From Paludibacter sp. (GTDB lineage Bacteria > Bacteroidota > Bacteroidia > Bacteroidales > Paludibacteraceae), in contig JAQTTH010000002.1 of assembly GCA_028710895.1 (NCBI GenBank), forward strand, positions 124,001 to 188,000: a stretch of DNA of 64,000 bases. Direction: 5' to 3'. How positions within the stretch are numbered: position 1 is the first letter of the stretch; each line of letters opens with the position of its first letter. Under the pieces are notes generated by a model, which saw only the letters and a program-made list of their open reading frames with translations, made no database searches and was not told the origin of the DNA. Below are positions 3,914 to 48,021 of this stretch, piece after piece. The position numbers and the translations under genes are program-made.

Positions 3914-3957
3914 ATTTATATAATTAGAATGCAGTTTTAAAAATCTATCGCTATTAA

Positions 3958-6900: not shown

Positions 6901-7278
6901 GCCACCTTCACTGTGTTTGACAGATGCTACCACTTCTACCGTGGTGAGGGTTTGTGTGTTTTCTAATAAAACAAAGTTTATTGTTTTATTCGTTCCAATT
7001 TTTCGTGTTTGTTTTACATACCCGGTATAACTGATAGATATATGGTTTTCAGGATTTCTAAGCCTGAGAACGTAATGTCCATTCAGGTCGGTTATACAAC
7101 CGCCTACAACCCTGTTGTTTGCATCTATTTCTGTAACACTGGCACCAATAATAGGTCCATCGGGAGTTGAACTTACTGTACCTTGTATAGTTAAACCATC
7201 ACCCGGCTTTTGGCTGAATGCTAAAGCTGGAAATAATAGTAAAATGAAAAGAAAGGTTATCGCAAAATTTGATTTCAT
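3958..7278 (-). CDS. susC: SusC/RagA-family TonB-dependent outer-membrane transporter
   Basis: A 1106-residue protein. Residues 1-22 are a signal peptide, about 28-110 a carboxypeptidase-regulatory-like beta domain (IQGTVSSTPDGPIIGASVTE), about 125-265 the plug (MRIRGASSINGSNQPLIVLN, then VLKDAAASAVWGSKGANGVI), and the rest a 22-strand barrel ending in LTLGITVGL. Between extension and plug the usual VVVGYG linker is replaced by TVEVVAS. No STN domain is present, so anti-sigma-type signalling is unlikely; the hybrid two-component regulator at 27833 is the probable controller. It imports oligosaccharides using TonB energy. It lies between a fasciclin lipoprotein gene and susD. Length is usual for the family. 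Confidence 0.96.
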   Translation of the reverse strand: MKSNFAITFLFILLLFPALAFSQKPGDGLTIQGTVSSTPDGPIIGASVTEIDANNRVVGGCITDLNGHYVLRLRNPENHISISYTGYVKQTRKIGTNKTINFVLLENTQTLTTVEVVASVKHSEGGFSIPKREISTAMQTLDMKEIEGLQVSSVDEALQGRIAGLDIVANSGDAGSGTSMRIRGASSINGSNQPLIVLNGVPYEMQVDPSFDYANSNSEQFANLLSINPDDIQDISVLKDAAASAVWGSKGANGVIMITTKKGRSGPTKVEYSYRYTGTVQPQGRKILNGDDYTMLMKQEFFNPAQSSSASNVVEFNYDKSFPNYENYNNNTDWVKEVTQIGNISDHYLTLSGGGDRATYRISGGFLSQNGTIIGQSNSRISSRSYLEYRVSDRLKFTAELSYTYSNYNRSFNFDFGNGDSPNEDLSILGIAYKKMPNVSIYKQDADGVNTDSYFKTPSTTTLNWDQKYLVNPVALAMKAKNNVKNYRTLPTFRLQYDFTDPAVQTLRYSMFVSFDINNDKTSRFLPSEIVNYSWTDKHFNRAESGDHESVSIQTDNNIAWSPKFDNEDHNILLYASLQTTEGRSNYQGINSYGLISNQATDASNAAYLTYEETGRSHWRSMGLLARMHYSFKGRYIFDGTFRRDGSTKFGNGNKWGNFPGISVKWIVSDEPFMKTTSNWLSMLAFRPGWGLAGNQPEFEYLHFSRYGNDGSYAGMPVQVPITLQLKNLRWETTSSFNYGCDLGLFGDKIQADMNLYYKRTNDMLFKFVGIPNSSGFGVLNYQNAGSMDNNGWEINLYANKVIKVGDFSVDFRLNFSNSMNKIVQLDQKILDTYNVKYDYSNGSYLTRIQEGNSYGSIYGFKYLGVYQYDKYVAGSQEDAPIARNKKGQVLLNEKGETVPMYFNYGRRNGGPQYVFRGGDAKYEDVNHDGNIDELDIVYLGNSNPLMNGGFGTTLRYKNLSCNFSFNFRYGNKIVNAARMLSENMYSTNNQSTVVNWRWRKDGDITSIPRALFDYGYNWLGSDRFVEDGSFLRLKYLTFNYSVPKQSLRKLSIDKVNFYLTLNNLFVLTKYSGVDPEIGYGSFGVSKDFGQTPRSKDLTLGITVGL

Positions 7279-20037: not shown

Positions 20038-21450
20038 ATGAACAACAATCGCAAACTAACTACTGTATTACTTTTAGCAGGAGCTTTTTTTCTGCAAAAC
20101 TTACAAGCACAGGAATTTCCAAAAGTCAGAATAGATAAGTCCGAACGTGGATTCAGCAGCACGACCGTTGACCAAAAGATAGAGCAAATGCAACAAACCA
20201 TCAAGGACAAAGAACTGGCCTGGATGTTTGGCAATTGCTTCCCGAACACATTGGACCGCACCGTTCGGGTTGGAACTAAAAACGGAAAACCAGACACTTT
20301 TGTGATTACCGGCGATATTTATGCCATGTGGTTGCGCGACTGTTCGGCTCAGGTTTGGCCATATATGCCTTACATGAAGGAAGATAAAAGCCTGCAAAAC
20401 CTGATTGCCGGAGTTATCAATCGTCAGGTGGAATGTGTATTGATTGATCCGTATGCAAATGCGTTCAACTTTGGTAAAGAAGGTGGCGAATGGATGACCG
20501 ACAACACTACTATGCGCCCCGAACTGCACGAGCGCAAATGGGAAGTAGACGGACTTTGTTATGTTATTCGCTTGGGTTATAACTATTGGAAGTTAACCGG
20601 CGACAAAAGCTGTTTCGATGCTAACTGGCACAAAGCCATGCAAACTATCGTGAAAACGTTTAAGGAGCAACAACGCAAAACGTCGCAAGGACCCTATAAA
20701 TTCACCCGGAAAACTGAGAAAGCTTCCGACACGCAATTTGGCGATGGTTACGGAAATCCGGTTCGACCAACTGGCATGATTTGCTCCACTTTTCGCCCAT
20801 CGGACGATGCAACTACTTACGGTTATCTTGTGCCATCTAACTGTTTTGCCGTAGTTTCATTGCGTCAACTTGCCGAAATGGAAACAGCTATCCGTGCCGA
20901 TAAAACTTTTGCTGACGAATGTTCGGCACTGGCTTCCGAAGTGGATGCGGCCATCAAAAAATACGCTATTGTCAATCACCCAAAATATGGTAAAATAATG
21001 GCTTTTGAAGTAGATGGATATGGAAATTACCTGATGATGGACGATGCTAACGTGCCTTCGTTGCTTTCGTTGCCATACCTTGGTTATGTGTCGGCTAAAG
21101 ATAAAATCTACCAAAACACCCGCAAATTTGTATTGAGCACCGACAATCCATATTATTACAAAGGAACAGCCGGCGAGGGAGTTGGCGGCCCGCACGTAGG
21201 TGTTGACATGATATGGCCAATGGCTATCACTATGCGCGCACTGACTTCGAGCGACGAAAAAGAAATTGCTGAGTGCCTGAAAATGTTGAAAAATACCCAT
21301 GCCGGTACCGGGTTTATGCACGAAACATTCAATAAAGATAATCCGGCAAAGTTCTCACGCTCGTGGTTTGCATGGGCTAATACGCTTTTTGGCGAATTGC
21401 TTGTTAAAGTGGAAAAAGAGCACCCGGCATTGCTTGAAAAAACATATTGA
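20038..21450 (+). CDS. GH125 exo-alpha-1,6-mannosidase
   Basis: A 470-residue protein with signal peptide ending near LQAQ; mature length about 445, right for GH125 (formerly DUF1237). Characteristic stretches: TFVITGDIYAMWLRDCSAQV, EWMTDNTTMRPELHERKWEV, GMICSTFRPSDDATTYGYLV and GFMHETFNKDNPAKFSRSWF. GH125 enzymes invert and use an Asp acid and Glu base; Asp256/Asp257 in RPSDDA and Glu429 in MHETF are the candidates. The family removes terminal alpha-1,6-linked mannose from N-glycans and mannan backbones. It sits directly after GH92, a pairing seen in mannan PULs. No sorting tail, so probably periplasmic. Confidence 0.96.
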   Translation: MNNNRKLTTVLLLAGAFFLQNLQAQEFPKVRIDKSERGFSSTTVDQKIEQMQQTIKDKELAWMFGNCFPNTLDRTVRVGTKNGKPDTFVITGDIYAMWLRDCSAQVWPYMPYMKEDKSLQNLIAGVINRQVECVLIDPYANAFNFGKEGGEWMTDNTTMRPELHERKWEVDGLCYVIRLGYNYWKLTGDKSCFDANWHKAMQTIVKTFKEQQRKTSQGPYKFTRKTEKASDTQFGDGYGNPVRPTGMICSTFRPSDDATTYGYLVPSNCFAVVSLRQLAEMETAIRADKTFADECSALASEVDAAIKKYAIVNHPKYGKIMAFEVDGYGNYLMMDDANVPSLLSLPYLGYVSAKDKIYQNTRKFVLSTDNPYYYKGTAGEGVGGPHVGVDMIWPMAITMRALTSSDEKEIAECLKMLKNTHAGTGFMHETFNKDNPAKFSRSWFAWANTLFGELLVKVEKEHPALLEKTY

Positions 21451-25141: not shown

Positions 25142-25200
25142 CAACAAAGCATTCAATTGTTTCAACTTTTAAATATTCACATCTTATTATCTTGATTATA

Positions 25201-27486
25201 ATGAAACACCTATTTTTTCTAATCTCATTTGCGTTTATTCAACTAGCTGTGCAGGCCGAAACTGCAACCACTAGTTTTGTCGATTTTGTAAACCCACTCA
25301 TAGGCTCACAATCCAACCATGAGTTATCCAACGGTAATACCTACCCAGCCATTGCTCGTCCGTGGGGAATGAATTTCTGGGTTCCTCAAACCAATGTTAT
25401 GGGCGACGGCTGGGTATACAATTACACCGATACGCATATCCGTGGTTTCAAGCAAACACACCAGCCAAGCCCTTGGATAAACGACTATGGACAATTTTCA
25501 TTAATGCCGATGAAGGGTATTATCATTAACGAGAATAAACGTGCCAGTTGGTTTTCGCATAAGGCAGAAATAGCCAAACCGTATTACTACAGCGTTTACC
25601 TGGCCGATTACGATATTACAACTGAAATAACGCCGACTGAACGTGCTGCTTTTTTCCGCTTTACTTTTTCGGAGTCTGATTCTTCGGCAGTTGTTATTGA
25701 TGCGTTTGACCGTGGATCGTACATTAAGATTATTCCTGAAGAAAATAAAATTATTGGCTACACAACCCGCAATAGTGGGGGAGTACCCGACAACTTCAAG
25801 AACTACTTTGTGGTACAGTTCGATAAAAAGGTGAAATTTATTTCCACCTGGAAAAACGAATCGTTGAGTGCAGAAAAAGAACTTACCGATAACCACGTTG
25901 GTGCTGTAGTAGGTTTTAAAACTCGCCGTGGTGAAGTTGTTCAGGCTAAAGTAGCATCCTCGTTTATCAGTTTTGAACAAGCCGAACGTAATTTGAACGA
26001 AATAGGAACAAAAACTTTCGACCAAGTGAAAGTTGAAGGGCGTAATAAATGGAACGAAACATTGGGCGTAGTTGATATCAAAGCCAATGTAGACCAAATG
26101 CGTACTTTCTACTCTTGCCTATATCGTTCAACCCTGTTTCCACGCATGTTCTACGAAATTGATGTAGCCGGAAAGCCCTATCATTACAGTCCGTATAACG
26201 GAAAAGTATTACCCGGTTATATGTTTACTGATAATGGTTTTTGGGATACTTTCCGGGCTCAATTTCCGCTTATAAACCTATTTTACCCTTCCTTGAATGC
26301 TAAAATTCAGGAAGGCTTGCTAAATACTTATAAAGAAAGCGGATTCTTGCCCGAGTGGGCATCACCCGGGCATCGCGATTGTATGGTTGGCAACAACTCA
26401 GCTTCTATTGTTTCCGATGCTATCCTGAAAGGAATTACTCCTAAAGAACTGCAACTTCCGCTTTACGAAGCCATGAAAACTTCGGCCAACAGCAATCATC
26501 CACAGATTCGTTCCACCGGACGCCGGGGAGTTGATTATTACAACAAATTAGGTTATGTGCCTTACAACGTGGGTATTAATGAAAGCGCTGCGCGCACCTT
26601 GGAATATGCGTATGACGACTGGTGTATTTATCAGGTTGGATTGAAGTTGAATCGTCCCAAAGAGGAAATTGAAGTGTACAAAAACAGAAGTCGTAATTTC
26701 CAGAATTTATTTGATCCAAGTCATAATCTGATGCGTGGCAAAAATGAAGATGGCACTTTCCAATCGCCTTACAACCCACTGAAATGGGGCGATGCTTTCA
26801 CCGAAGGAAACGGTTGGCATTATACCTGGTCGGTTTTTCATGATATCAATAAGCTGAAAAGTCTTATGGGTGGCGAAAAAGTATTTGCAGGTATGTTAGA
26901 TTCTGTGTTTGCTTTGCCGCCAATTTTCGATAACAGTTATTATGGCGGAACTATTCATGAAATTCGCGAAATGCAGATTATGAATATGGGAAATTATGCT
27001 CATGGAAATCAGCCTATCCAGCATATGATTTATCTTTATGATTATGCCCGTCAACCATGGAAAACCCAGTATTGGGCGCGCGAAGTAATGGACAAACTTT
27101 ATCTCCCAACTCCGGATGGATATTGTGGAGATGAAGACAACGGTCAAACTTCGGCATGGTACATTTTCTCGAGTCTTGGATTTTATCCTGTGTGTCCGGG
27201 TACTAATCAGTACATTGTGGGTTCGCCGATGGTACAAAAAGCCACCATTTCATTAGAAAATGGAAAGAAAATCGTAATTGATGCTTTTGGAAATAATAAG
27301 GACAACCGGTACATACAATCACTGCTTGTGAATAAGAAACCATATACGCTCAATTATCTCGATTTTTCTGAAATGCAGAAGGGACAAACGCTATTGTTCA
27401 ATATGGATAATAAACCGAATATGAGTAGAGGTATTTCATTGAGAGATTTGCCTTATTCTTACAGTGCTGTTGAAACAGAAAAATAA
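25201..27486 (+). CDS. GH92 alpha-mannosidase (second copy)
   Basis: Start taken at the ATG at 25201, which gives MKHLFFLISFAFIQLAVQA; a TTG three codons earlier is less likely. 761 residues. It closely resembles the GH92 at 17731 (FVDFVNPLIGSQSNHELSNG, PWGMNFWVPQTN, GNQPIQHM). Catalytic residues fall at the same numbers: Glu535 in TEGNGWHYTW, Asp644 and Asp646 in CGDEDNGQTSAWY. The two look like ancient duplicates with related specificity, separated by GH125 and the GH78-like gene. Exported, no sorting tail, presumably periplasmic. It is the last gene before a strong terminator and the regulator gene. Confidence 0.95.
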   Translation: MKHLFFLISFAFIQLAVQAETATTSFVDFVNPLIGSQSNHELSNGNTYPAIARPWGMNFWVPQTNVMGDGWVYNYTDTHIRGFKQTHQPSPWINDYGQFSLMPMKGIIINENKRASWFSHKAEIAKPYYYSVYLADYDITTEITPTERAAFFRFTFSESDSSAVVIDAFDRGSYIKIIPEENKIIGYTTRNSGGVPDNFKNYFVVQFDKKVKFISTWKNESLSAEKELTDNHVGAVVGFKTRRGEVVQAKVASSFISFEQAERNLNEIGTKTFDQVKVEGRNKWNETLGVVDIKANVDQMRTFYSCLYRSTLFPRMFYEIDVAGKPYHYSPYNGKVLPGYMFTDNGFWDTFRAQFPLINLFYPSLNAKIQEGLLNTYKESGFLPEWASPGHRDCMVGNNSASIVSDAILKGITPKELQLPLYEAMKTSANSNHPQIRSTGRRGVDYYNKLGYVPYNVGINESAARTLEYAYDDWCIYQVGLKLNRPKEEIEVYKNRSRNFQNLFDPSHNLMRGKNEDGTFQSPYNPLKWGDAFTEGNGWHYTWSVFHDINKLKSLMGGEKVFAGMLDSVFALPPIFDNSYYGGTIHEIREMQIMNMGNYAHGNQPIQHMIYLYDYARQPWKTQYWAREVMDKLYLPTPDGYCGDEDNGQTSAWYIFSSLGFYPVCPGTNQYIVGSPMVQKATISLENGKKIVIDAFGNNKDNRYIQSLLVNKKPYTLNYLDFSEMQKGQTLLFNMDNKPNMSRGISLRDLPYSYSAVETEK

Positions 27487-27832: not shown

Positions 27833-30800
27833 ATGACCATACAGCAAATGAAAAAAGCTTTATTAGCACTATTAATCATTATCTGTGTTTTTGAGACCAA
27901 AGCTTCACGAACGTTACCTTTCGTGAAGTATCAGGTTGAGAATGGCTTGTCGCACAACACAGTTTGGTGTGTTATGCAGGATAGTTACGATTTCATGTGG
28001 TTTGGTACCAGCGATGGGTTGAACTGTTTTGATGGGAAGAATTTCAGAATTTTTCGGAGTAATTCGCAGGATAAAAGTTCGATAGGAAATAATTTTATTC
28101 AGTCGTTGTACGAAGATGAACAACATGATATCTGGGTTGGCACCAATAGAGGATTGTACTTGTTTGATAGAAAGAGTGAGTCTTTCTCATACTTTAATCA
28201 AAAAACGGAAGACGGTGTACTTATCAGTAGTAATGTCAGCAAAATTATAAAAAGTAATAGCGGAACCATTTGGATTGCTACACTTGGTCAGGGCATATTT
28301 ATTTATAATCCTAAAACCAAAACGCTTGTTCAAAATAGTACATTCACTTCATTTGTAATGAGTTTATTAGAAACTCCAAACGGTAATATTTTCGCCACAT
28401 CGCGTCTGAGTGGATTGATTTGCTTTGACAAAAACGGTAAATATCTTCGTTCCTATGTTCCTGCTGATAGCAAAAATGGTCTGAACAACATCGAAATCAG
28501 CACGCTATGCTTTCAAAATAATGCGCTGTGGTTTAATGTTGGAACCTTTGGATTCTACAAATTAGATTTCAAAACAGGGCAGATGAAAGCGATTGCGAGC
28601 GAAAATAATTTGCCTGTGGTATCGAATATCCGCAAGATTTTTGCATACTCAACTAATCAACTTTGGGTGGGTGGAGATAATGGACTATATCTTTTTGATA
28701 TTCAAAATGAACACTTTAGTAGAATTGACGATCCTTCGAACCCCAAAAGTTTAAATGATCAGTCGGTGTACGACATTACCCGCGATCGGGAAGGGGGCAT
28801 GTGGGTTTCTACTTACTTCGGTGGTGTAAACTATCTCCCCAAAAACTTAAAACCATTTGAACATTACTTTCCCAAATACCAGTCGGGCTCTATTTCAGGC
28901 AAGGCTATCAGTCAGTTTTGTGAAGATCCATTAGGCAACATCTGGATTGCCACTGAGGATGGAGGCTTAAATTACCTCGATACAAAGACGCAACAAGCAC
29001 GGATTTATAAGCCTGCAGGTGCTAAAAACAGCATAAGCTATCACAATATTCATTCCCTGTTGCTTGACCAAAATAAATTGTGGATTGGTACTTTCTCGAG
29101 AGGAATTGACATTTTTGATATTCGGAATAAAACTTTCAAGAACTACCAACATCGTCGTGATGATTCGAAGAGTATTTGTGATAATGCAATTTATTCGATT
29201 TTCAGAGATAGCGAGGGTGATATTTTTGTTGGAACAGCCTGGGGGGTAAGTAAATACAACAGGGCTTCAGATTCATTTGCGATTATAGACGAGATTGGGC
29301 CAATGGTTCATGTTTTCAATATGCTTGAGGACAGTCACGGGTATTTATGGGTGGCAACTTATAATGCCGGTGTTTTTCGCATGAATATGAAAACAAAAAA
29401 ATGGAGTCATTATGTTCACAATGCTGATGATCCAAATTCCGTTTCTGGAAATAGCGTCATCTCATTATTCGAAGATAATCGTCACACAATTTGGCTCGGT
29501 ACAGAGGGTGGAGGGCTATGTTCGTTCAATAATAAATCGGAAACATTTACATCTTTTGATGCCGAAAACAAGTTGTTGCCTAACCCGGTAATTTATGCTA
29601 TCCAGCAGGATGAGTTTGGCAATTTTTGGATTGCCTGTAATGCCGGACTTGTGCGCATTAATCCTTATACTAAAAAGAACCGGTTGATCTTTACGAAGGC
29701 AGATGGACTCCAAAGTAATCAGTTTAACTTTAGATCATCCTTGCGTGCACACGATGGTAAAATGTACTTTGGTGGTATTAATGGGTTTAATGCATTCTAT
29801 CCTAAAGATTTTACTGAGAATAGATATATTCCAAAAGTAAGAATTGTTGATTTTAAGCTTTTCAATAAACGGGTTGCAGTTACAGATGAAGGATCTCCCT
29901 TATCTGAACCGATTTACGACTTAGATAAGTTGCAACTTCAATACAATCAGAATACATTTAGTCTTTCGTTTGCCGCATTAAGTTTTCAGGCTCCTGAAAA
30001 AAATCAATATTCCTACATGCTGGAAGGCATTGATAAGAACTGGATGGAGCTAGACAATGGAAACAATACAGCTTCTTATACAAACTTGCAGCCCGGAACT
30101 TATACATTACATGTAAAAGGTTCAAACAATGATGGTCTTTGGAATCAAAAGGAAGCTACATTGGTTATAACAATTCTGCCTCCATTCTGGAAATCGGGAT
30201 TTGCCTATTTCCTTTATCTTATCATTTTCTTGTCAGCAATGTATTGGTTGTACCGGAATTGGATTCGCCGTTTGAGCCACCAAAACGAAGAACGGTTAAA
30301 AGGTTTCCGCGAAAAACAAGAACGGGAAAGTTATTTGTCCAAGATTAATTTCTTTACCAATATTTCACACGAAATCCGCACACCACTAAGTCTTATCAAA
30401 TTGCCATTAGAGCGCATTATAAATTCAGGTGATGGTAATGAAAAAACAAAGGACTTTCTGTCCACCATTAATAAAAATACAGATTATTTGCTCAATCTGA
30501 TTAATCAGTTACTCGATTTTAGAAAAACGGAAGAAACTGAATTTCAATTGCATATAAGGACTCATGATGTAAAAGCACTTTTGCAGGATCTATTCATACG
30601 TTTTAAACACGGTGCTGATATTCAAAATATTGAGCTGACAATAAACTTACCACACGATGATTTATTGGTAGGCGTTGACAGAGAGGCATTTAATAAGATA
30701 GTAAGTAATTTATTGAGTAATGCGCTTAAATATGCTAATTCAAAATCAGAAATGAAGCTGGAGGTTTTCGAGCGGCATTTTGAAGTACGTATTTCGGACG

Positions 30801-31894
30801 ATGGAAAAGGGATTTCTGAATCAGAGATAAAGAAAATTTTTGATATATTTTACCAGTCCGACAACAGCGAAATGGGAACCGGAATTGGATTGGCATTGGC
30901 AAAAGCACTTGTTGAAAAACATAATGGTACGTTGAAGTATGAACAAAATGAGGCGGGTGGATCAACTTTTGTGATTTCAATCCCCAACATGATAGCGAAG
31001 CAATCGAATGCCACAAAACAGGATGGCGATATTGTATTGGCTGACACAGAGTATAATAAGCATTTGCGTAACACAGAAACCGATGCCGTAAAAGAAGAGA
31101 GAAATGTAAAGCTCCTGCTGGTCGAGGATAATGTTGAACTGATAAAATTAACTGCGGAATATCTTAGTGATTATTATCAAATATTTACGGCTACTAATGG
31201 TGAAGAAGCGTTGCAACTAATGGCAGAAGAGAATATTGACATAGTTGTAAGTGACATAATGATGCCGATTATGGATGGTTATCAACTATGTGAGGCAATA
31301 AAAACCGATACACAAAATTGTCATATCCCGATTATTTTATTGACAGCAAAAACAAATGTTGAATCGAAAATAATGGGACTCGAATATGGCTCAGATGCGT
31401 ATCTGGAAAAACCATTCTCGTTGGAACATTTAAGAATGCAGATAAATAATCTACTGAATAGTCGTCAGCGCTTGCGGGAGTTATTTGCATCTTCGCCGGC
31501 ATTATCACCGGTAGAAATTGCTGTATCCAAGAAAGATCAGGCTTATATCGAAAGACTTAACAGCGAAATAGAGAAACATTTACTGGATGTAAATTTCTCA
31601 ATCGACACGTTATCAGACTTTATGAATATGAGTCGCTCCAATTTTTATAGAAAAATTAAGAGTATTTCGGGTATGTCGCCAAACGATTACCTTAAAACAA
31701 TTCGATTGAAAAAAGCGGCCGAGTTACTTCTGAGTCAGGATTACCGGATAAACGAAGTATATGAGCAAGCCGGATTTAGCTCATCTTCCTACTTTGCTAA
31801 ATGTTTCAAAGAACAATTTGGCATGCTTCCACGCGAATTTGTTACCAAAGCCACTAAAGGAATTAATCCGAAAGAAGCAGATATAGAGGAATAA
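27833..31894 (+). CDS. Hybrid two-component system sensor/regulator (HTCS)
   Basis: A 1353-residue one-protein signalling system; the ATG at 27848 would give a tighter signal peptide. Residues about 25-690 are a two-bladed-propeller sensor made of repeats such as NGLSHNTVWCVMQDSYDFMW and IWVGTNRGLYLFD, followed by a Y_Y_Y domain (about 715-780), a membrane helix (785-808), a HisKA domain with His846 in NISHEIRTP, a HATPase domain (about 944-1055), a receiver domain with Asp1141 in VVSDIMMP, and an AraC-type HTH (about 1250-1335). In PULs of this type the periplasmic propeller binds a released oligosaccharide and the HTH activates susCD and enzyme operons. It sits between the two enzyme clusters and is the only regulator in the PUL, so it probably controls both strands. 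Confidence 0.97.
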   Translation: MTIQQMKKALLALLIIICVFETKASRTLPFVKYQVENGLSHNTVWCVMQDSYDFMWFGTSDGLNCFDGKNFRIFRSNSQDKSSIGNNFIQSLYEDEQHDIWVGTNRGLYLFDRKSESFSYFNQKTEDGVLISSNVSKIIKSNSGTIWIATLGQGIFIYNPKTKTLVQNSTFTSFVMSLLETPNGNIFATSRLSGLICFDKNGKYLRSYVPADSKNGLNNIEISTLCFQNNALWFNVGTFGFYKLDFKTGQMKAIASENNLPVVSNIRKIFAYSTNQLWVGGDNGLYLFDIQNEHFSRIDDPSNPKSLNDQSVYDITRDREGGMWVSTYFGGVNYLPKNLKPFEHYFPKYQSGSISGKAISQFCEDPLGNIWIATEDGGLNYLDTKTQQARIYKPAGAKNSISYHNIHSLLLDQNKLWIGTFSRGIDIFDIRNKTFKNYQHRRDDSKSICDNAIYSIFRDSEGDIFVGTAWGVSKYNRASDSFAIIDEIGPMVHVFNMLEDSHGYLWVATYNAGVFRMNMKTKKWSHYVHNADDPNSVSGNSVISLFEDNRHTIWLGTEGGGLCSFNNKSETFTSFDAENKLLPNPVIYAIQQDEFGNFWIACNAGLVRINPYTKKNRLIFTKADGLQSNQFNFRSSLRAHDGKMYFGGINGFNAFYPKDFTENRYIPKVRIVDFKLFNKRVAVTDEGSPLSEPIYDLDKLQLQYNQNTFSLSFAALSFQAPEKNQYSYMLEGIDKNWMELDNGNNTASYTNLQPGTYTLHVKGSNNDGLWNQKEATLVITILPPFWKSGFAYFLYLIIFLSAMYWLYRNWIRRLSHQNEERLKGFREKQERESYLSKINFFTNISHEIRTPLSLIKLPLERIINSGDGNEKTKDFLSTINKNTDYLLNLINQLLDFRKTEETEFQLHIRTHDVKALLQDLFIRFKHGADIQNIELTINLPHDDLLVGVDREAFNKIVSNLLSNALKYANSKSEMKLEVFERHFEVRISDDGKGISESEIKKIFDIFYQSDNSEMGTGIGLALAKALVEKHNGTLKYEQNEAGGSTFVISIPNMIAKQSNATKQDGDIVLADTEYNKHLRNTETDAVKEERNVKLLLVEDNVELIKLTAEYLSDYYQIFTATNGEEALQLMAEENIDIVVSDIMMPIMDGYQLCEAIKTDTQNCHIPIILLTAKTNVESKIMGLEYGSDAYLEKPFSLEHLRMQINNLLNSRQRLRELFASSPALSPVEIAVSKKDQAYIERLNSEIEKHLLDVNFSIDTLSDFMNMSRSNFYRKIKSISGMSPNDYLKTIRLKKAAELLLSQDYRINEVYEQAGFSSSSYFAKCFKEQFGMLPREFVTKATKGINPKEADIEE

Positions 31895-38211: not shown

Positions 38212-39204
38212 ATGAAAAAACAACAGCTAAGTTTTCTGATTATTCTCTCTTTTTTAATTTTTGGTTATCAACCGATTACTATTATTGCTCAAAAGGCAGG
38301 AAATCCGGTTTTTCAAGGATGGTACGCTGACCCCGAAGGTACTGTTCTGAATAATGCATATTGGATTTATCCCACTTATTCTGCACCCTATGAGAAACAG
38401 GTTTTTATGGATGCATTTTCTTCGAAAGACCTTGTACATTGGACTAAACATAGCCACATAGTTGATACATTGCACATAAAATGGGCCAAGAAGGCTATGT
38501 GGGCACCAGCTATTGTAAAAAAGGCAGATAAGTACTTTTTGTTTTTTAGTGCCAACGATATTCAAAATAACAATTCGGTAGGTGGAATAGGTGTTGCGGT
38601 TTCAAGTAAACCCGAGGGTCCATTCAAAGATTATCTCGGAAAGCCTTTGCTCGATAAATTCTATAACGGTGCACAGCCCATAGATCAATTTGTTTTTCAG
38701 GATAAAAATGGTCAGTACTATATGATTTACGGAGGTTGGAGACACTGTAATATAGTCAAACTTCAAAGCGATTTTAAAGCGTTTATGCCATTTTCGGATG
38801 GAACTACTTTCAAAGAAATTACTCCCGAAGGCTATGTTGAAGGTCCGGTAATGTTTTGCCGGAATAATAAATATTACTTTATGTGGTCGGAGGGTGGATG
38901 GACCGGGCCTGATTATAGGGTAGCTTATGCCATCAGCGATTCGCCTTTTGGCCCATTTACCCGAATAGGATTGGTGTTGCAGCAAGATGCCCGAATTGCA
39001 ACAGGGGCAGGACATCATTCGGTGATTAATGTTCCGGGAACAGATGAATGGTATATTGTTTATCATCGCCGCCCGTTGACTGAAACGGATGGAAACTCCC
39101 GTGTAACCTGTGTGGATAAGATGTATTTTGATACTGATGGAAAAATTAAACCCGTGGTAATGACATTTGAAGGCGTGAATCCCAGACCTCTGAAAAATAG
39201 ATAG
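38212..39204 (+). CDS. GH43 glycosidase with complete catalytic triad
   Basis: 330 residues, signal peptide ending near IIAQ. A single five-bladed propeller with all three GH43 carboxylates: Asp40 in WYADPEG, Asp158 in PIDQFVFQD and Glu210 in YVEGPVMF; WAPAIVKKADKYFLFF and GAGHHSV are also typical. GH43 enzymes are inverting arabinofuranosidases, xylosidases or galactosidases. The role in an alpha-mannan PUL is unclear: it may trim side chains on fungal heteroglycans. No sorting tail. Its stop is one base before the ATG of the following GH92, so the two are translationally coupled. It makes a useful contrast with the degenerate GH43 at 13865. Confidence 0.92.
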   Translation: MKKQQLSFLIILSFLIFGYQPITIIAQKAGNPVFQGWYADPEGTVLNNAYWIYPTYSAPYEKQVFMDAFSSKDLVHWTKHSHIVDTLHIKWAKKAMWAPAIVKKADKYFLFFSANDIQNNNSVGGIGVAVSSKPEGPFKDYLGKPLLDKFYNGAQPIDQFVFQDKNGQYYMIYGGWRHCNIVKLQSDFKAFMPFSDGTTFKEITPEGYVEGPVMFCRNNKYYFMWSEGGWTGPDYRVAYAISDSPFGPFTRIGLVLQQDARIATGAGHHSVINVPGTDEWYIVYHRRPLTETDGNSRVTCVDKMYFDTDGKIKPVVMTFEGVNPRPLKNR

Positions 39205-39205
39205 A

Positions 39206-41212
39206 ATGAAGATTTTCAGATTATTTTTACTTTTTTCGATACTGATTTTTACGGCTACTATAGAAGCTTCAAACGGCTCAAAAGTGAATCTTTTTATCGG
39301 AACTTCGGGCGACAATGGGCAGGTTGACCCGGGAGCTGCTGTGCCGTTTGGCATGGTTCGCGTTTGTCCCGATAGCGACCCCCGAAGTCATGCCGGTTAC
39401 GATTATAGTGTTGATAAAATCTCGGGAATCTCTGTCAATCGCATGTCGGGAGTTGGTTGTAGCGGGGCAGGTGGCAATTTTAGTTTGAAACCTGCTGCTG
39501 CAAATTATGATTTGCGGATTTTAAAAAACACAGAAAAAGCATGTCCGGGCTATTATAAGACCACGCTAAGCAATTCCGTAAAAGTTCAACTTACAGCAAC
39601 CAATAACATTGCTGTGGAGCAATACACGTTTCCGAATGATGTTGCTCCATTGTTTGTCTTCAATGTCGGTTCTTCGTTTGAACGCACATTGGACGCACAA
39701 CATAGTTTTGTCTCGAATAAGGAGCTGGAGGGCTATGTTGTTTGTGCAAATGTGTGTGGACGAGGGCGGTATCGTCTTTATTTCAATTTGAATACGAACA
39801 AACCATTTGAAATAAAGAAAGACGAAGATCAACAACTGGAATTGTCGTTTGCTAAAAATGAATCAGCACCAATAGAATTTCGCATTGCAGTTTCGTCGGT
39901 GAGTATCGATGCTGCCCGAAACGAAAATCGAATAAAAGAGGCACAAACATTTGATCACATAAAATCGGATGCCGCAAAATTATGGGACGAAAAGCTTTCA
40001 AAAGTGAGTGTTGAAGGAGGCTCGATCGATGATCGGGCTATCTTTTACACTTCGCTTTACAGGGTTTATTTGAGTCCGGCAAATGTCACTACTTCTACCG
40101 GACAATACCTTGCAACTGACGGAAAAATTAGGGATGCCGGCAATTCAACTTATTATAGCTCGTGGTCGCTTTGGGATACATACAGAACGAAATTCCCGTT
40201 GCTTGTACTGCTGGAACCTCAGGCCATGAGCAACATGTCGCAATCATTGGTAAGGCTTTATCAGAGCGGTAAAACTAACTGGTCAACCGATTCGGAAGCC
40301 ACGCCAACAGTAAGAACCGAACATGCTGTCATTCTATTGCTCGATGCTTACAGGAAAGGAATAACCGGTATTGATTTCAATACTTGTTACCCTCAATTGT
40401 GCAAGGAGGCAAGCGAATTAGCACAGAACTCACCGGATCAAAAATTGGAAGCAGCGTCGGATTTATGGGCATTGGCACAAATTGCAACTATCATTGGACA
40501 CAAGGATGATGCAGATAAATACCGAAGAGTGTCCGAAACGCTTTTTGCAAATACATGGAAGCAAGAGTTTATGACAATAACTCCGACATTTAGCAAAATG
40601 GGTGGTAATGGCTTGTACCAAGGTACCCGGTGGCAGTATAGATGGGGTGCACCTCAGTTCCTGAATAACATGATTGAGTGGTGCGGCAAAGATTCTTTGC
40701 TTAGCCAGTTGAATTATTTTTTCGAAAATCACCAGTTCAATCAGGGGAATGAGCCGGATATTCATGTGCCATTTTTGTTTAATCGGTTGGGTGCTCCGCA
40801 AAAAACACAGCAGGTTGTACGGGAACTGCTGACAAAAGGAATTATTCATAAATACGGTGGTAATGCCGAATTTCGTACGCCTTACGTTGGGCGTGCTTTC
40901 AAGAATAACGTTGAAGGATTTATGCCCGAAATGGATGAAGATGATGGTACTATGGGCGCTTGGTACATATTTAGTTCGATGGGAATTTATCCGCTGGTTG
41001 TGGGAGAGCCGGTTTATGAGCTTGCCTCGCCATTGTTCGATAAAATTTCTATTAAGTTGGAGAATAATAAAACGTTGATTATTAGAACAAAGAACAGGCT
41101 GTATGCAGATGATACTGTAAAGCAAGTGTTGTTGAACGGTAAACCAATATCGAACCGGCAATTAGCTCATGCCGATATAATGTCTGGCTCTGTTGTTGAG
41201 TTTGTCTATTGA
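39206..41212 (+). CDS. GH92-family protein with Gln at the general-acid position
   Basis: 668 residues, about 90 shorter than the other two GH92 here, with signal peptide (1-21). The family is clear from VNLFIGTSGDNGQVDPGAAV, PFGMVRVCPDSD, GNEPDIHVPFLFN and EMDEDDGTMGAWYIFSSMGI. The base pair is Asp577/Asp579. Where the paralogues have Glu in EGCAWHY or EGNGWHY, this one reads YQGTRWQYRW, so the acid is replaced by Gln472; spacing to the base pair (105 against 109) supports the alignment. From memory, the GH92 CcMan5, which cleaves mannose from mannose-1-phospho-6-mannose, shows this same Glu-to-Gln change, since phosphate leaves without acid help. This protein may therefore uncap phosphorylated mannan. 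Alternatively it is inactive. It is the last gene of the GxGYxYP-GH2-GH43 operon. Confidence 0.9.
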   Translation: MKIFRLFLLFSILIFTATIEASNGSKVNLFIGTSGDNGQVDPGAAVPFGMVRVCPDSDPRSHAGYDYSVDKISGISVNRMSGVGCSGAGGNFSLKPAAANYDLRILKNTEKACPGYYKTTLSNSVKVQLTATNNIAVEQYTFPNDVAPLFVFNVGSSFERTLDAQHSFVSNKELEGYVVCANVCGRGRYRLYFNLNTNKPFEIKKDEDQQLELSFAKNESAPIEFRIAVSSVSIDAARNENRIKEAQTFDHIKSDAAKLWDEKLSKVSVEGGSIDDRAIFYTSLYRVYLSPANVTTSTGQYLATDGKIRDAGNSTYYSSWSLWDTYRTKFPLLVLLEPQAMSNMSQSLVRLYQSGKTNWSTDSEATPTVRTEHAVILLLDAYRKGITGIDFNTCYPQLCKEASELAQNSPDQKLEAASDLWALAQIATIIGHKDDADKYRRVSETLFANTWKQEFMTITPTFSKMGGNGLYQGTRWQYRWGAPQFLNNMIEWCGKDSLLSQLNYFFENHQFNQGNEPDIHVPFLFNRLGAPQKTQQVVRELLTKGIIHKYGGNAEFRTPYVGRAFKNNVEGFMPEMDEDDGTMGAWYIFSSMGIYPLVVGEPVYELASPLFDKISIKLENNKTLIIRTKNRLYADDTVKQVLLNGKPISNRQLAHADIMSGSVVEFVY

Positions 41213-42581: not shown

Positions 42582-45500
42582 ATGAAAAAGTCAACAATTC
42601 TGACAGTTATAGTCGTACTAAACCTGTTTTTTTCGGTGAATCTATCATCGCAGGTTCGTGTGGCTTGTGTTGGAAATAGCATTACAGCCGGTTACGGCAC
42701 CTCAGATGCAACTACTAAAGCCTGGCCGGCTCAGCTTGGCACTATGCTCGGAAGTGGATACACTGTTCTAAACTGCGGTGTAAGTGGAACAACCATGCTT
42801 AAAAAAGGTGATAGTCCGTATTGGAATACAACCAAATTTACAGACGCTAAGAATTTTGATCCGCAAATTCTCATTATCTCGTTGGGAGTAAATGATACGA
42901 AACCCCTAAATTGGGTTTATAAAAGCGAGTTTAAAGCGGATTATATTGCCATGATTAATGAATTTCGGGCAAACGGAAAAACTCCGGCTATTTATGTTTG
43001 TTATCCTGCACCGTATTTTGGCAATACTACTCAAAACAACATCATAACCAACGAAATGTTGGCCATTATAAAGTCAGTCAGTGATTCGATGCAAACATCA
43101 ATTATTGATTTAAACAGCCAATTAAAACCGTATTCAAACTTGTTTTTGGATGGACTTCACCCAAATGATTTGGGCTCAGGAATTTTGGCTCAGTTTGTAC
43201 ATAATGCTATCATGCAGGCTACTACTATCAATTCCGGCAGTATTTATAAAATTCTCTCCAGGGTATCAAACAAAACATTACAGGTCGCAAATTCGTCGAT
43301 GGATAACAGTGCCAATGTAGAAACCTGGACTGACACACAGTGTGATGCTCAACGCTGGCTTGTCACTTCGTTGGGTAATGATTTATACACACTCACCAAT
43401 GTAGCCAGCGGAAAACTCCTGCACTTGACAGCCACAGCTCCTTCAAATACCACCAATGTAGACCAGTATGACAATTTGAACAACAATACAGTAAAGTGGA
43501 AAATTGTAAATCAGGGAAATGGTTATTTCACACTCCAAAGTGCAGCCAATAATACATATGTGCTTGATTTGGCTGGCGCCGGCACTGCTGATGGGACAAA
43601 TGTGGATGTGTATCAGGCTAATGGTGCAGATGCGCAGTCGTGGTCATTCCATTTACAAACGGCCAGGGAAGCTGCACCAACAGCTGCCATTGCCGATAAA
43701 ATGTTTACTGCATGGCGGGCAAAATACTATGACCGAAACAGAACAGGTAACGAAGTGATTGCCAAGGAGGGTTTTTGGGGTGTTGCCGAAATGATGGAGA
43801 TTGTAGACGATGCGTACGAAGTTACAGGAAACACAAAATATGTTAGTCTTTTTAATACCATGTACAGCCTCTTTCTGAATAAAGAAGGTTCAGATTGGAT
43901 GTGGAATGAATACAACGATGACATAACCTGGATGGCAATTGCCTGTACCCGTGCTTCGCTGCTTACAGGAAACACAACCTATCAGGTAAAAGCCAAGGAG
44001 CAATTTGACAAAATGTGGGCAAGAGCCTACAGTACTACATACGGTGGCGGACTTTTGTGGAAACAGGGATTGGTTACAAAAAATTCATGTATAAATGGTC
44101 CGGCGATGGTGGCATGTTGTTATTTGGCTCAGGCTACCGGCGATAATACGTATTACGACAAAGCGATTGAATTGTATAACTGGTCCAAACTTTATCTGTT
44201 CAATGCCACAACCGGAAAAGTGAATGATGCGTATGACGGAACTGTTCATGACTGGAGCTCAACGTATAATCAGGGCACTTATTTAGGTGCAGCTGTGATG
44301 CTCTATAATTACACCAAAAATCCGAATTACCTGCTTGAGGCGCAACGAATAGCTCAGTTTACGAAAGTGAATATGTTCGCATCCAAAGCCATTGATGGCG
44401 AAACGGGAACAGATTTGAATGGATTTAAAGGAATATATATGCGTTATGCGCGCCGTTATGTGGTAGATTGTAATCGCACAGATTATATCCCATGGTTGCA
44501 ACTAAACGCCAAAGTGGCCTATAACAATCGGAATGCAGAGAATCTGATTTTTACAAGGTGGGGAACAAAAACTGCCGAGACAATTACACTTCCTGCCGAT
44601 ACGACGATTAAGCGGATTCCGGCTTTTGCAGCATCTACAGCTGTTTCACTTTTGATGAATTGTCCATATTCAACCGTTTTGAATAAAAATGCTTTCAATA
44701 CAATTGAGGCAGAAGATTTCGATTACTTTAAAGGTATCACTGTTGAACCTTGTCCGGACGGAACATCGAATATTGGAGGTGTAAAGCCGGGATATTACAC
44801 AGCTTATTATAATGTTGACTTTGGGTTTAAAGGTGCTTCGTCGGCACAAATACGACTTGCGGGAATTGCTGCCGGCAATACAATTGAAATTCGTCTTGGT
44901 GGCGTAACCGGAACGATTATTGGCACTGCAACTGTTCCAAACAATGGAAACTGGTCTACGTATTCAACAATTACTTGTCCGGTAACAAACGTTAAGGGCT
45001 TGCAAAACATTTACCTCGTTTATAAAGGAACAGGCTACGTGTGTAACGTAAATAACTTCAAATTTATTGAAGCTGATGTAGCCGGAGAAACTCATGGGTT
45101 GCTTGGAAGTTACTTCAATGCAACGACGTTGGTAAATCCGATTTTGCAGCGAATTGACAGCAACATAAATTTTGACTGGGCTGAGTTTTCTCCTGCAGCT
45201 TCCGTCAATACGAATCTTTTCTCGGCTCGTTGGACCGGGAAAATACAGCCACTTTATACAGATACTTATACATTTTATATCACATCTGATAATGGCCGCA
45301 GGCTATGGGTGAATAATCAGGCAATTGTAGACCGTTGGGTAAACGATGCTGGTATTACCTATTCAGGAACTATTGATTTAGTTGCTGGCCAGAAATACGA
45401 TATTAAAGTGGATTATTACGATCTTACCGGGAATGCTAACATTAAACTGGAATGGGGCAGTGCGCAACAAATTCGGGAAGTAGTTCCAAATGCTCAACTG

Positions 45501-45785
45501 TATTTGCCGGATGAGTTGCCTTCAGCCGTAGTGGAAAATAAGGTATTGACTGATAACTTGAAAATATATCCAGTTCCAGTTATAAATAAACTTACAATTG
45601 ATTCGGGAAATGTGGATGCCTGCCAGATTCGCATTACAGATGTTAATGGCCGACTATTAATTCAAAACAATGAGAAATTCGTTGGTAAGAAATCAGTTGA
45701 TGTTGCGGCGTTGTCTCGCGGCGTTTATGTTGTTTCTGTTTTATCTGGCAATGGATTAATAAGAAACCGATCATTTGTAAAATAA
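42582..45785 (+). CDS. SGNH esterase - ricin - GH76 alpha-1,6-mannanase - CBM6 - PA14 fusion, T9SS-secreted
   Basis: 1067 residues, signal peptide (1-24). Residues about 25-212 form an SGNH/GDSL hydrolase: Ser33 in CVGNSITAGYG, SLGVND for the oxyanion hole, Asp190 and His193 in DGLHPND. About 220-358 is a ricin/CBM13-like trefoil. About 363-650 is GH76, with the paired catalytic Asp446-Asp447 in YNDDITWMAIA. About 707-828 is CBM6 (IEAEDFDYFKGITVEPC), about 836-975 PA14 (GLLGSYFNATTL), and the rest a T9SS domain. GH76 cuts alpha-1,6-mannan backbones internally, so this is probably the surface endo-acting enzyme starting degradation. The esterase could remove O-acyl groups that block the mannanase. 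Next come the M6 protease and GH38. Confidence 0.92.
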   Translation: MKKSTILTVIVVLNLFFSVNLSSQVRVACVGNSITAGYGTSDATTKAWPAQLGTMLGSGYTVLNCGVSGTTMLKKGDSPYWNTTKFTDAKNFDPQILIISLGVNDTKPLNWVYKSEFKADYIAMINEFRANGKTPAIYVCYPAPYFGNTTQNNIITNEMLAIIKSVSDSMQTSIIDLNSQLKPYSNLFLDGLHPNDLGSGILAQFVHNAIMQATTINSGSIYKILSRVSNKTLQVANSSMDNSANVETWTDTQCDAQRWLVTSLGNDLYTLTNVASGKLLHLTATAPSNTTNVDQYDNLNNNTVKWKIVNQGNGYFTLQSAANNTYVLDLAGAGTADGTNVDVYQANGADAQSWSFHLQTAREAAPTAAIADKMFTAWRAKYYDRNRTGNEVIAKEGFWGVAEMMEIVDDAYEVTGNTKYVSLFNTMYSLFLNKEGSDWMWNEYNDDITWMAIACTRASLLTGNTTYQVKAKEQFDKMWARAYSTTYGGGLLWKQGLVTKNSCINGPAMVACCYLAQATGDNTYYDKAIELYNWSKLYLFNATTGKVNDAYDGTVHDWSSTYNQGTYLGAAVMLYNYTKNPNYLLEAQRIAQFTKVNMFASKAIDGETGTDLNGFKGIYMRYARRYVVDCNRTDYIPWLQLNAKVAYNNRNAENLIFTRWGTKTAETITLPADTTIKRIPAFAASTAVSLLMNCPYSTVLNKNAFNTIEAEDFDYFKGITVEPCPDGTSNIGGVKPGYYTAYYNVDFGFKGASSAQIRLAGIAAGNTIEIRLGGVTGTIIGTATVPNNGNWSTYSTITCPVTNVKGLQNIYLVYKGTGYVCNVNNFKFIEADVAGETHGLLGSYFNATTLVNPILQRIDSNINFDWAEFSPAASVNTNLFSARWTGKIQPLYTDTYTFYITSDNGRRLWVNNQAIVDRWVNDAGITYSGTIDLVAGQKYDIKVDYYDLTGNANIKLEWGSAQQIREVVPNAQLYLPDELPSAVVENKVLTDNLKIYPVPVINKLTIDSGNVDACQIRITDVNGRLLIQNNEKFVGKKSVDVAALSRGVYVVSVLSGNGLIRNRSFVK

Positions 45786-45846: not shown

Positions 45847-48021
45847 ATGAATATAAAATTACGTTTTACTGTGCTACTCATTGTTTTGCTCTGTGGCGTG
45901 GGAGTTTTTGCCCGACAGTTAGAACCTGGCGCTGCACAAAAATCAAAAAAAACAGAAGCAGCTACTACCGGAAAAATTGAAGCTTTGGTAATTCTCATTG
46001 AGTTTGCCGATCGAACAGCTTACTTTTCGCGCAACGAAGTCGATAGTTTTTTCAACCAGGTTGGTTTTAATAAGTTTCACGACAATGGGTCGGTTCGCGA
46101 TTACTGGGCAGCCGTATCGCAAAATCGGATTGATGTTCATACCAATGTCTCTGAAGCCTATTATAAAGCCCCTAAAAATTTCGCTTATTACGACACAGAT
46201 GGTGGAACCGGTCATACACATGAATTGTTAGACTCTGCTTTGAACTGGTTGGATAAACAGGGTTTCGATTTCTCAAAACTTACTGTCGATGCAAACAATA
46301 ATATCAAAGCATTGAGCTTTCAGTTTGTAGGCAATTCCGGAGCAAGCGGTCTTTGGGGACATTCAAGCTATCACGGACGCACATTTGATGGTGTAAATAC
46401 AGCATCATATCAAATTTCAGAACTTGGAACCACCGAAATGCATTTGGGTGGCATTTGTCACGAGCAAGGACATATGCTTTTTGGTTGGCCGGACACTTAC
46501 GATATCGATGCCAGTAATGGTGGCTCAAGTGGATGCGGAAAATTTGATTTAATGGCAGCCGGAAATTCGGATAATACCGGAGCGCCGAGTGGAAATCCAA
46601 TGCCACCAAATCCATATTTTCGATACCTGGCTGGTTGGAATGATTTGATTCCGATGAATCGGTTTCCAAATGATACAATAATTAAAATCATAGCCAATAG
46701 CGCCAACACGTATGTTTACCGAAATCCTGACAAGGCAGGGGAAATGTATATTGTAGAGGCACGGAAAAAACCTTATCGCAATGTGGATATGCCGGGCGAA
46801 GGTATTTTGGTTTGGCACATCGATAGTGTTATTCCGAACAATGCCAACCAGCAACATACCGAACTACAGCATTATAAAGTTTCTGTTGTTCAGGCAGATA
46901 ATCGCTATGAACTTGAGGCAGGAACTAATATTGGTGATGCCAATGATTATTTTAAACTCGGAAACGTAGCAGCCGTGACGTATTTACGCACCTCTTGGTG
47001 GAATTCGGCCTACTCGGGATTACAGTTGAGAAATATCAGATCGGTAAGCGATACAATGGCTGTGAGCTTCGGTAGTGCGAATGCAACTGATGTTGGTATA
47101 ACTTCTACACGTACACTTGGAGGTGCTATAAGTCCCTTCGGGTTGAAATATTACACAAAGAATAGCTCCGGAACTTATATTGCAACGCCATTGAAAGGCT
47201 TTGATGTGGCTGATTGTTTGGTGGATGGACTCTCTCAGGGTGCAATCTCTACCTATACATTTACCGAACTTGCTGCATCGCATAAAATCGATTTCTCCTT
47301 TATACACAAGGCTGTCAATCTGAAAGATGTTTCGTCCGTTGTCAATTACAGCTATTACGAAGGCGCTTGGACTTCTGTTCCGGATTTCAGTAAACTTATT
47401 CCGATAAAAACAGGCAAGTTGCTTTCCCTCACGCTCACTATTGCAGGTCGTGCTTCCGATAATTTTGGTGTTCATTATTCCGGGTTTATCAAAGCCCCCA
47501 CAGATGGAGAATATACGTTTTATCTAACTTCTGATGATGGCAGTAAATTCCTGATTGATGGCATTGAAATAGTCTCAAATCAGTGTGAACCGGAGAAATC
47601 AGGGAAAATTAAGCTGAAAGCTGGTTATCATGCCTTTACTCTCGATTTCTTCGAAGGCCAGATTACCGAATCTCTTTCATTGAAATGGAGCGGTCCGGGT
47701 CTTACAAAAAGAGTGTTGACAGGTATTGTTACCGGAACAATTGATGAATCTACTGCCGTGGAAAATATAACTGATATATCCGGGGCCAAAATGTGTGTTA
47801 CTTCTGACGAATTTAAATTCACGTGCCCTGATACGGAAAGTATTCAGGTTGAAATTTATAGTTTGTCAGGGCAATTGGTCGAAAGGCAAGCTCTTAATAC
47901 AACTCTCGGAATTGCAACACTGCCTGTCACAAATCTGAAATCAGGTTTGTATATTGTGAGGGTTAGCAACAGCGGAAAGGTTTTAATCCGACAAAAAGTA
48001 AGTGTTTTGCATTCAAATTAA
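45847..48021 (+). CDS. M6-family (immune inhibitor A-like) metalloprotease, T9SS-secreted
   Basis: 724 residues with signal peptide ending VFAR. The zinc site is CHEQGHMLFGWPD: His205, Glu206, His209 and Asp216, the HExxHxxGxPD form of M6 peptidases; GKFDLMAAGN, the M6 Met-turn region, follows. About residues 500-620 is a PA14-like domain (GFIKAPTDGEYTFYLTSDDG) and the final 75 a T9SS domain (VEIYSLSGQLV, SGLYIVRVSNSGKVLIRQK). M6 proteases degrade extracellular proteins. Placed between GH76 and GH38, it fits a substrate that is a glycoprotein or cell-wall mannoprotein whose protein part must also be cut. That reading is inferred. Confidence 0.93.
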   Translation: MNIKLRFTVLLIVLLCGVGVFARQLEPGAAQKSKKTEAATTGKIEALVILIEFADRTAYFSRNEVDSFFNQVGFNKFHDNGSVRDYWAAVSQNRIDVHTNVSEAYYKAPKNFAYYDTDGGTGHTHELLDSALNWLDKQGFDFSKLTVDANNNIKALSFQFVGNSGASGLWGHSSYHGRTFDGVNTASYQISELGTTEMHLGGICHEQGHMLFGWPDTYDIDASNGGSSGCGKFDLMAAGNSDNTGAPSGNPMPPNPYFRYLAGWNDLIPMNRFPNDTIIKIIANSANTYVYRNPDKAGEMYIVEARKKPYRNVDMPGEGILVWHIDSVIPNNANQQHTELQHYKVSVVQADNRYELEAGTNIGDANDYFKLGNVAAVTYLRTSWWNSAYSGLQLRNIRSVSDTMAVSFGSANATDVGITSTRTLGGAISPFGLKYYTKNSSGTYIATPLKGFDVADCLVDGLSQGAISTYTFTELAASHKIDFSFIHKAVNLKDVSSVVNYSYYEGAWTSVPDFSKLIPIKTGKLLSLTLTIAGRASDNFGVHYSGFIKAPTDGEYTFYLTSDDGSKFLIDGIEIVSNQCEPEKSGKIKLKAGYHAFTLDFFEGQITESLSLKWSGPGLTKRVLTGIVTGTIDESTAVENITDISGAKMCVTSDEFKFTCPDTESIQVEIYSLSGQLVERQALNTTLGIATLPVTNLKSGLYIVRVSNSGKVLIRQKVSVLHSN

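Follow-up and report, generated by a model that had tools for sequence, protein, structure and literature searches.

The GH92 protein and its acid position

The window analyzed here is a stretch of 64,000 nucleotides from Paludibacter sp. (contig JAQTTH010000002.1, positions 124,001 to 188,000), in which the open reading frame (ORF) at 39206-41212 on the plus strand, hereafter the query, encodes a protein of 668 amino acids that belongs to glycoside hydrolase family 92 (GH92). Both GH92 domains were found with Pfam (PF17678 with 149 bits and PF07971 with 314 bits), and the pair of base aspartates is kept, but the general-acid glutamate is replaced by a glutamine, Gln472. The missing glutamate is no bar to membership in GH92, since CcMan5 (CcGH92_5) of Cellulosimicrobium cellulans, a recognized GH92 enzyme, also has glutamine. 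Judged by eye, the N-terminus holds a signal-like stretch, and the lipobox pattern is absent. The genome encodes nine GH92 proteins, and the residues that mark the clade of CcMan5 are found in the query alone. The features of the gene are as follows:

39206-41212, plus strand: GH92 protein of the clade that contains CcMan5, 668 amino acids
39311-39313, plus strand: Asp36, shared by all 110 clade members sampled
40313-40315, plus strand: Arg370, a candidate phosphate ligand, shared by all 110 clade members sampled and by 0 of 43 other GH92s
40616-40618, plus strand: Tyr471, beside the acid position, shared by all 110 clade members sampled; Tyr also occurs in 2 of the 43 others
40619-40621, plus strand: codon CAA for Gln472 at the general-acid position, aligned with CcMan5 Gln536 and BT3990 Glu533
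40934-40942, plus strand: the base pair Asp577/Asp579, retained according to the alignment, in DEDDG

When the query was aligned with the sequences of solved structures and the chain numbering was restored, Gln472 fell in the column of CcMan5 Gln536 and BT3990 Glu533, and Asp577 and Asp579 fell with CcMan5 Asp660 and Asp662 and with BT3990 Asp642 and Asp644. In BT3990, Glu533 has been assigned as the acid and Asp642/644 as the base (PMC10167667; this and the other papers cited here are drawn on in excerpt). Since the numbered chains pair Gln472 with these two residues, the acid column is not a guess of the alignment. The alignment and the codon CAA, one base away from a codon for glutamate, bear out a sequence-only reading of this DNA, which had placed Gln472 of YQGTRWQY at the general-acid position with Asp577/579 kept, and had ascribed the same change to CcMan5, where the glutamine is Gln536 of the deposited 2XSG sequence. 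The same reading gave Glu535 for two other GH92 proteins of the locus, and this also holds (GAA in both), with the numbering of the one at 25192-27486 counted from an ATG.

The glutamine is common among relatives of the query. A homologue search gave 4108 matches, and among the best 120, whose named members include Labilibaculum, the motif GLYQG[TS]RWQY is present in 119; the part of the remaining one that was searched did not show it. Such names, like the SusC/SusD-like pair and the T9SS tails (type IX secretion) in the window, point to Bacteroidota. A genome scan found 164 places that encode relatives, picked by two other motifs; of the best 80, which were kept, 78 are readable as an ORF, and the acid position is Gln in 77 and Glu in one (L037). 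Since the same residue recurs in 119 of 120 homologues and 77 of 78 loci, Gln472 is not a sequencing accident. In the CcMan5-like proteins P0121-P0144, Gln was found in 17 of 17 readable sequences, and seven of the 24 are too partial to be read. Loss of the acid could in principle make the query an inactive or binding-only paralogue, a lectin-like or dead GH92, and exchange of Glu for Gln has been used to disable GH92s, both in an Enterococcus E494Q mutant deposited with ligand in the PDB (by its entry title) and in NnGH92, where E944Q was made as an inactive variant (PMC10167667). We regard this as highly improbable for the query, given that Gln is retained in nearly all readable loci, that CcMan5 is active with the identical Gln, and that, in the dereplicated set described below, column 577 is acidic in all members and column 579 in all Gln members and 97% of Glu members.

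The query also departs from the BT3990-type α-1,2-mannosidases at the +1 subsite. We take the specificity triad of BT3990 to be Trp88, His584 and Glu585, numbers that fit the letters of the alignment. At these positions the query has Cys85 and two gaps and CcMan5 has Gly and two gaps, and both Glu-bearing GH92 neighbors of the query keep Trp, His and Glu. The query thus lacks the triad, which is described as a Trp, a Glu and a His (PMC9522356).

Among characterized enzymes, BT3990 and BT2199 share the family and the base pair with the query but have a glutamate as general acid, the triad and a longer loop. The α-1,3-mannosidase BT3130 (6F8Z) is the best single PDB match of the query and also lacks the triad; however, its acid is Glu535 (PMC5930347), and it has neither Arg370 nor an insert found before the base pair of the query. 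CcMan5 (2XSG, 4AQ0) has the GH92 fold in common with the query, together with Gln in the acid column, the base pair, the signature of Arg370, Asp36 and Tyr471, the insert and the absence of the triad. The two are only about 25% identical, and Glu-bearing lineages stand between them inside their clade, so their glutamines need not share an origin. CBM6 is carried by the CcMan5-like relatives P0123 and P0128, whereas none was seen in the query with Pfam. In the predicted model of the query, the active-site loops have a predicted local distance difference test score (pLDDT) below 50.

The CcMan5 clade and its Glu/Gln exchanges

A search was seeded with the Glu-bearing sequences P0145 and L037, and the best 120 of its 1649 matches were listed. 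In a joint 153-sequence alignment, proteins of 620 amino acids or fewer and 12 near-identical Bacteroides proteins had been dropped from P0153-P0265, and long proteins were cut at 1000 residues. Clade membership was scored by Met576, and the columns around the acid were removed before all trees were built. A second tree of 82 rows holds 76 clade members and 6 others, rows of the same state having been dereplicated at 72% identity. The results show that the query, CcMan5 and their relatives form one clade apart from the other sampled GH92s, with support of 99.9/100 in IQ-TREE (55 sequences), 1.0 in FastTree (153 sequences) and 100 in the Shimodaira-Hasegawa-like approximate likelihood ratio test (SH-aLRT) under LG+C20 (82 rows). 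The query therefore has in common with CcMan5 both the glutamine and the clade. Met576 and the insert are present in 110 of the 153 GH92s, the members in which Arg370, Asp36 and Tyr471 are invariant. By source names, the members come from Bacteroidota, actinobacteria, gamma-proteobacteria, and Sedimentisphaera-like and Opitutales bacteria. Two of them, P0153 and P0212, have precomputed PF01120 and PF07470 (GH88) domains, which suggests fusions; PF01120 is presumably a fucosidase family.

In the acid column, 71 of the 110 sampled members have Gln and 39 have Glu, a ratio that is a property of the sample and not a natural frequency because the best 120 of 1649 matches were used; all 43 sequences outside the clade have Glu. 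At least 10 changes between Gln and Glu are needed on the 153-sequence tree and at least 10 on the 82-row tree, compared with at least 26 for shuffled labels on the former, and the well-supported branches of the latter by themselves require the Gln label to change 8 times. A single Gln clade was rejected, as the constraint costs 1049 log-likelihood units (approximately unbiased test, p 1.9e-46). The natural Glu forms L037 (4357-6402) and P0155 are basal to the Gln group of the Bacteroidota.

Since the 43 non-clade sequences come mostly from the same searches, a separate sample of genomes served as a control. This control covered 61 genomes from the phylum of the window, the genome of the window among them, and gave 61 matches in 26 genomes, one of the matches being a short fragment below the cut-off. 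The 60 GH92 ORFs read comprise the query, 58 with Glu and one, L114, without an alignable acid, so that the acid column is Glu in 58 of the 59 non-query ORFs. L114 is an ORF with GH92 Pfam matches in which neither the acid nor the base motif can be aligned, and it is perhaps a non-hydrolytic offshoot. In 295 genomes, 30 of 36 matches were read; the three clade members (the query, L138 and L139) all have Gln, and the 27 non-clade GH92s, 2 of which are already among the 60 of the control, all have Glu.

With Glu relatives in the same clade and many interchanges, Gln alone is not diagnostic. As far as sequences can tell, it is not by itself a marker of specificity, and the clade may be one. A better marker would be the Arg370 signature, with Gln as a symptom: Arg370 lies two residues past the aligned position of BT3990 Cys393, which has been placed at the boundary of the -1 and +1 subsites (PMC5930347). 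The natural exchanges are repeated and are seen in this one clade only, so the acid seems dispensable for the clade's substrate. Together with the reported action of CcMan5 on Man-P-Man phosphodiester linkages (PMC5930347), whose phosphate leaves easily, the simplest reading of the exchanges is a clade that cuts phosphodiesters and can do without the acid. We consider the case evenly balanced for the broadest form of this idea, in which the whole CcMan5 clade would consist of dedicated α-mannosyl-1-phosphodiester hydrolases where the acid is dispensable, the Glu/Gln exchange is near-neutral, the Arg370 signature marks the specificity and the Glu members uncap too. Some of these Glu-bearing members are currently named α-1,2-mannosidases. 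In the excerpted literature covered, which lies apart from Tiels 2012 and Cuskin 2015, no published description of a clade with many Glu/Gln swaps was found.

The same sequences could be read to mean that the acid has moved, with Glu372 or Asp36 protonating the leaving group, in which case the enzymes would cut ordinary α-mannosides of unusual linkage. In the dereplicated set, every one of the 47 Gln and 29 Glu members has an acidic residue at columns 36 and 372. At column 372, 106 of the 110 clade members have Glu and 4 have Asp; the 43 others mainly have Tyr or Asn there. Glu372 lies four residues past the position of the boundary residue Cys393, and a relocated acid would speak against phosphodiester cleavage. 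Yet CcMan5 has both residues (Glu407 and Asp22) and reportedly targets phosphodiesters (PMC5930347), and we consider a relocated acid unlikely.

The gene cluster and the neighborhoods of relatives

The query is one of 15 consecutive plus-strand genes at 13862-51288, in the order GH43, GtaA-type, GH92, GH125, GH78-like, GH92, hybrid two-component regulator, GxGYxYP, GH2, GH43, the query, acyltransferase, GDSL-GH76, M6 metalloprotease-PA14 and GH38. The following features are relevant here:

2357-7278, minus strand: SusD-like and SusC-like outer-membrane pair, on the opposite strand to the cluster and only putatively linked to it
17731-20010, plus strand: GH92 with Glu535 (GAA) and the α-1,2 triad, BT3990-like by alignment
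20038-21450, plus strand: GH125, an α-mannosidase family (Pfam)
25192-27486, plus strand: GH92 with Glu (GAA) and the α-1,2 triad; the Glu is residue 538 from TTG and 535 from an in-frame ATG three codons on
27833-31894, plus strand: hybrid two-component regulator
38212-39204, plus strand: GH43-family protein, one base between its stop and the start of the query
42582-45785, plus strand: GDSL lipase with ricin-type lectin, GH76, CBM6, PA14 and a type IX secretion system (T9SS) tail; no other GH76 match occurs in the genome
48052-51288, plus strand: GH38, an α-mannosidase family

GH76, GH125, GH38 and GH92 thus occur together with a regulator, and these four families have been named for yeast α-mannan breakdown in B. 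thetaiotaomicron (PMC9213526). The two Glu-bearing GH92s are of the BT3990/BT2199 type. GH92, GH125, GH76, GH43 and GH2 are likewise together in the α-mannan polysaccharide utilization locus of Salegentibacter sp. Hel_I_6 (PMC9213526), which has six GH92s; the likeness is one of family content. The GH76 protein at 42582-45785 combines in a single chain a GDSL esterase, three ricin-type stretches, GH76, CBM6 and PA14. At 45847-48021 lies a T9SS-tailed M6 metalloprotease with PA14, and a 67% homologue of it (L010:7803-9977) directly precedes the Gln-type GH92 in L010.

In several Bacteroides genomes, Gln-type relatives adjoin GH76, GH125 or a Glu-type GH92, and an order that recurs there, with variations, is GH76, U721, GtaA, (GH92-Glu), GH125, epimerase, GH92-Gln and GH127. 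Several of the recurrent neighbor families scanned in the relatives' loci are housekeeping genes. A family of 721 amino acids (L020:3966-6128 and 9 further loci) occurs at 10 of the 80 loci, without a Pfam, NCBIfam or convincing PDB match; nine printed rows have it with GH76, GtaA or a Glu-type GH92 near a Gln-type GH92, and it has no match within the window. In L014, a cluster with both Glu- and Gln-type GH92s, a Metallophos gene (3974-4978) stands between GH38 and a mannitol dehydrogenase and is a possible partner phosphatase.

The enzyme might use the same chemistry on a different substrate, a mannosyl phosphate in a glycan or glycolipid from a source other than yeast, such as algae, protists or bacteria. 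The cluster also holds two GH43, a GH2, a GH78-like and a GxGYxYP protein, and relatives adjoin GH127, GH106 and GH88 at 8, 5 and 4 of the 80 loci, or PIG-L. However, GH76, GH125, GH38 and BT3990-like GH92s are the usual set for fungal α-mannan, and we hold a non-yeast substrate to be rather unlikely.

Proposed function and mechanism

On the strength of sequence comparisons, the best-supported role of the query is removal of α-mannose from mannose-1-phospho-6-mannose (uncapping), which we consider probable. The query would be an exported, exo-acting, inverting hydrolase whose target is the mannose-1-phospho-6-mannose of fungal mannan, perhaps along with other α-mannosyl phosphodiesters, and it would leave mannose-6-phosphate ends. 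The Asp577/579 pair would activate water as in other GH92s, and Arg370 may hold the phosphate. The leaving group would need no protonation, as a phosphate monoester leaves readily, and the acid position would be free to be Gln. Mannosyl-phosphate caps are released in mild acid, even in an acidic matrix for matrix-assisted laser desorption/ionization (MALDI), which argues that phosphate is an easy leaving group (PMC5992200). Replacement of BT3990 Glu533 by Gln or Ala strongly lowered, but did not abolish, activity on α-1,2-mannobiose (PMC10167667). Uncapping is a documented use of CcMan5 (PMC9246025).

The sequence-only reading had proposed such an uncapping enzyme in a locus for yeast mannan. 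The shared Gln, the shared clade and the loss of the triad support the first part, but Gln itself turned out not to be diagnostic; the second is supported by GH76, GH125, GH38 and the two BT3990-like GH92s. Several results weigh against uncapping in yeast-mannan use. No phosphatase family was found at E 0.001 with Pfam in any of the 15 cluster genes (13862-51288); PF03372 has six matches elsewhere in the genome, five above the curated cut-off. The enzymes required for yeast mannan have been listed to include sugar phosphatases (PMC5798181), and a phosphatase in the locus is expected for phosphomannan use, without being strictly defining. An α-mannan enzyme lies in the flank read, which differs in length, at only 17 of 80 loci. 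The distant Gln members L167 and L168 are near an SSF sodium symporter and a PIG-L deacetylase, and their flanks have no match to the α-mannan enzymes used as probes; their substrate is perhaps glycolipid or glycosylphosphatidylinositol (GPI)-like and not mannan. DUF2911 was also seen in L167. Finally, sequence and profile scores put BT3130 slightly above CcMan5 as a match of the query, and the folds tie.

The query adds a distant new member to a kind of enzyme already known, and the clade with many Glu/Gln swaps is a finding beyond it. To our knowledge, CcMan5 is the sole characterized member of the clade. If the proposed role is true, mannose-1-phosphate uncapping is no longer confined to one characterized actinobacterial enzyme, with which mannose-6-phosphate glycans are made for use in lysosomal enzyme therapy (PMC9246025), but also occurs in Bacteroidota that degrade mannan, gut Bacteroides included. 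Among the best 120 of 4108 homologues, P0107, named B. thetaiotaomicron by its source, is 56% identical to the query. Five GH92s of B. thetaiotaomicron are without an assigned specificity on simple disaccharides (PMC5930347), and a phosphodiester substrate could explain such orphan GH92s, although P0107 is not identifiable as one of the five. The repeated swaps between Glu and Gln in the clade provide a natural experiment that bears on the conditions under which a glycosidase dispenses with its acid.
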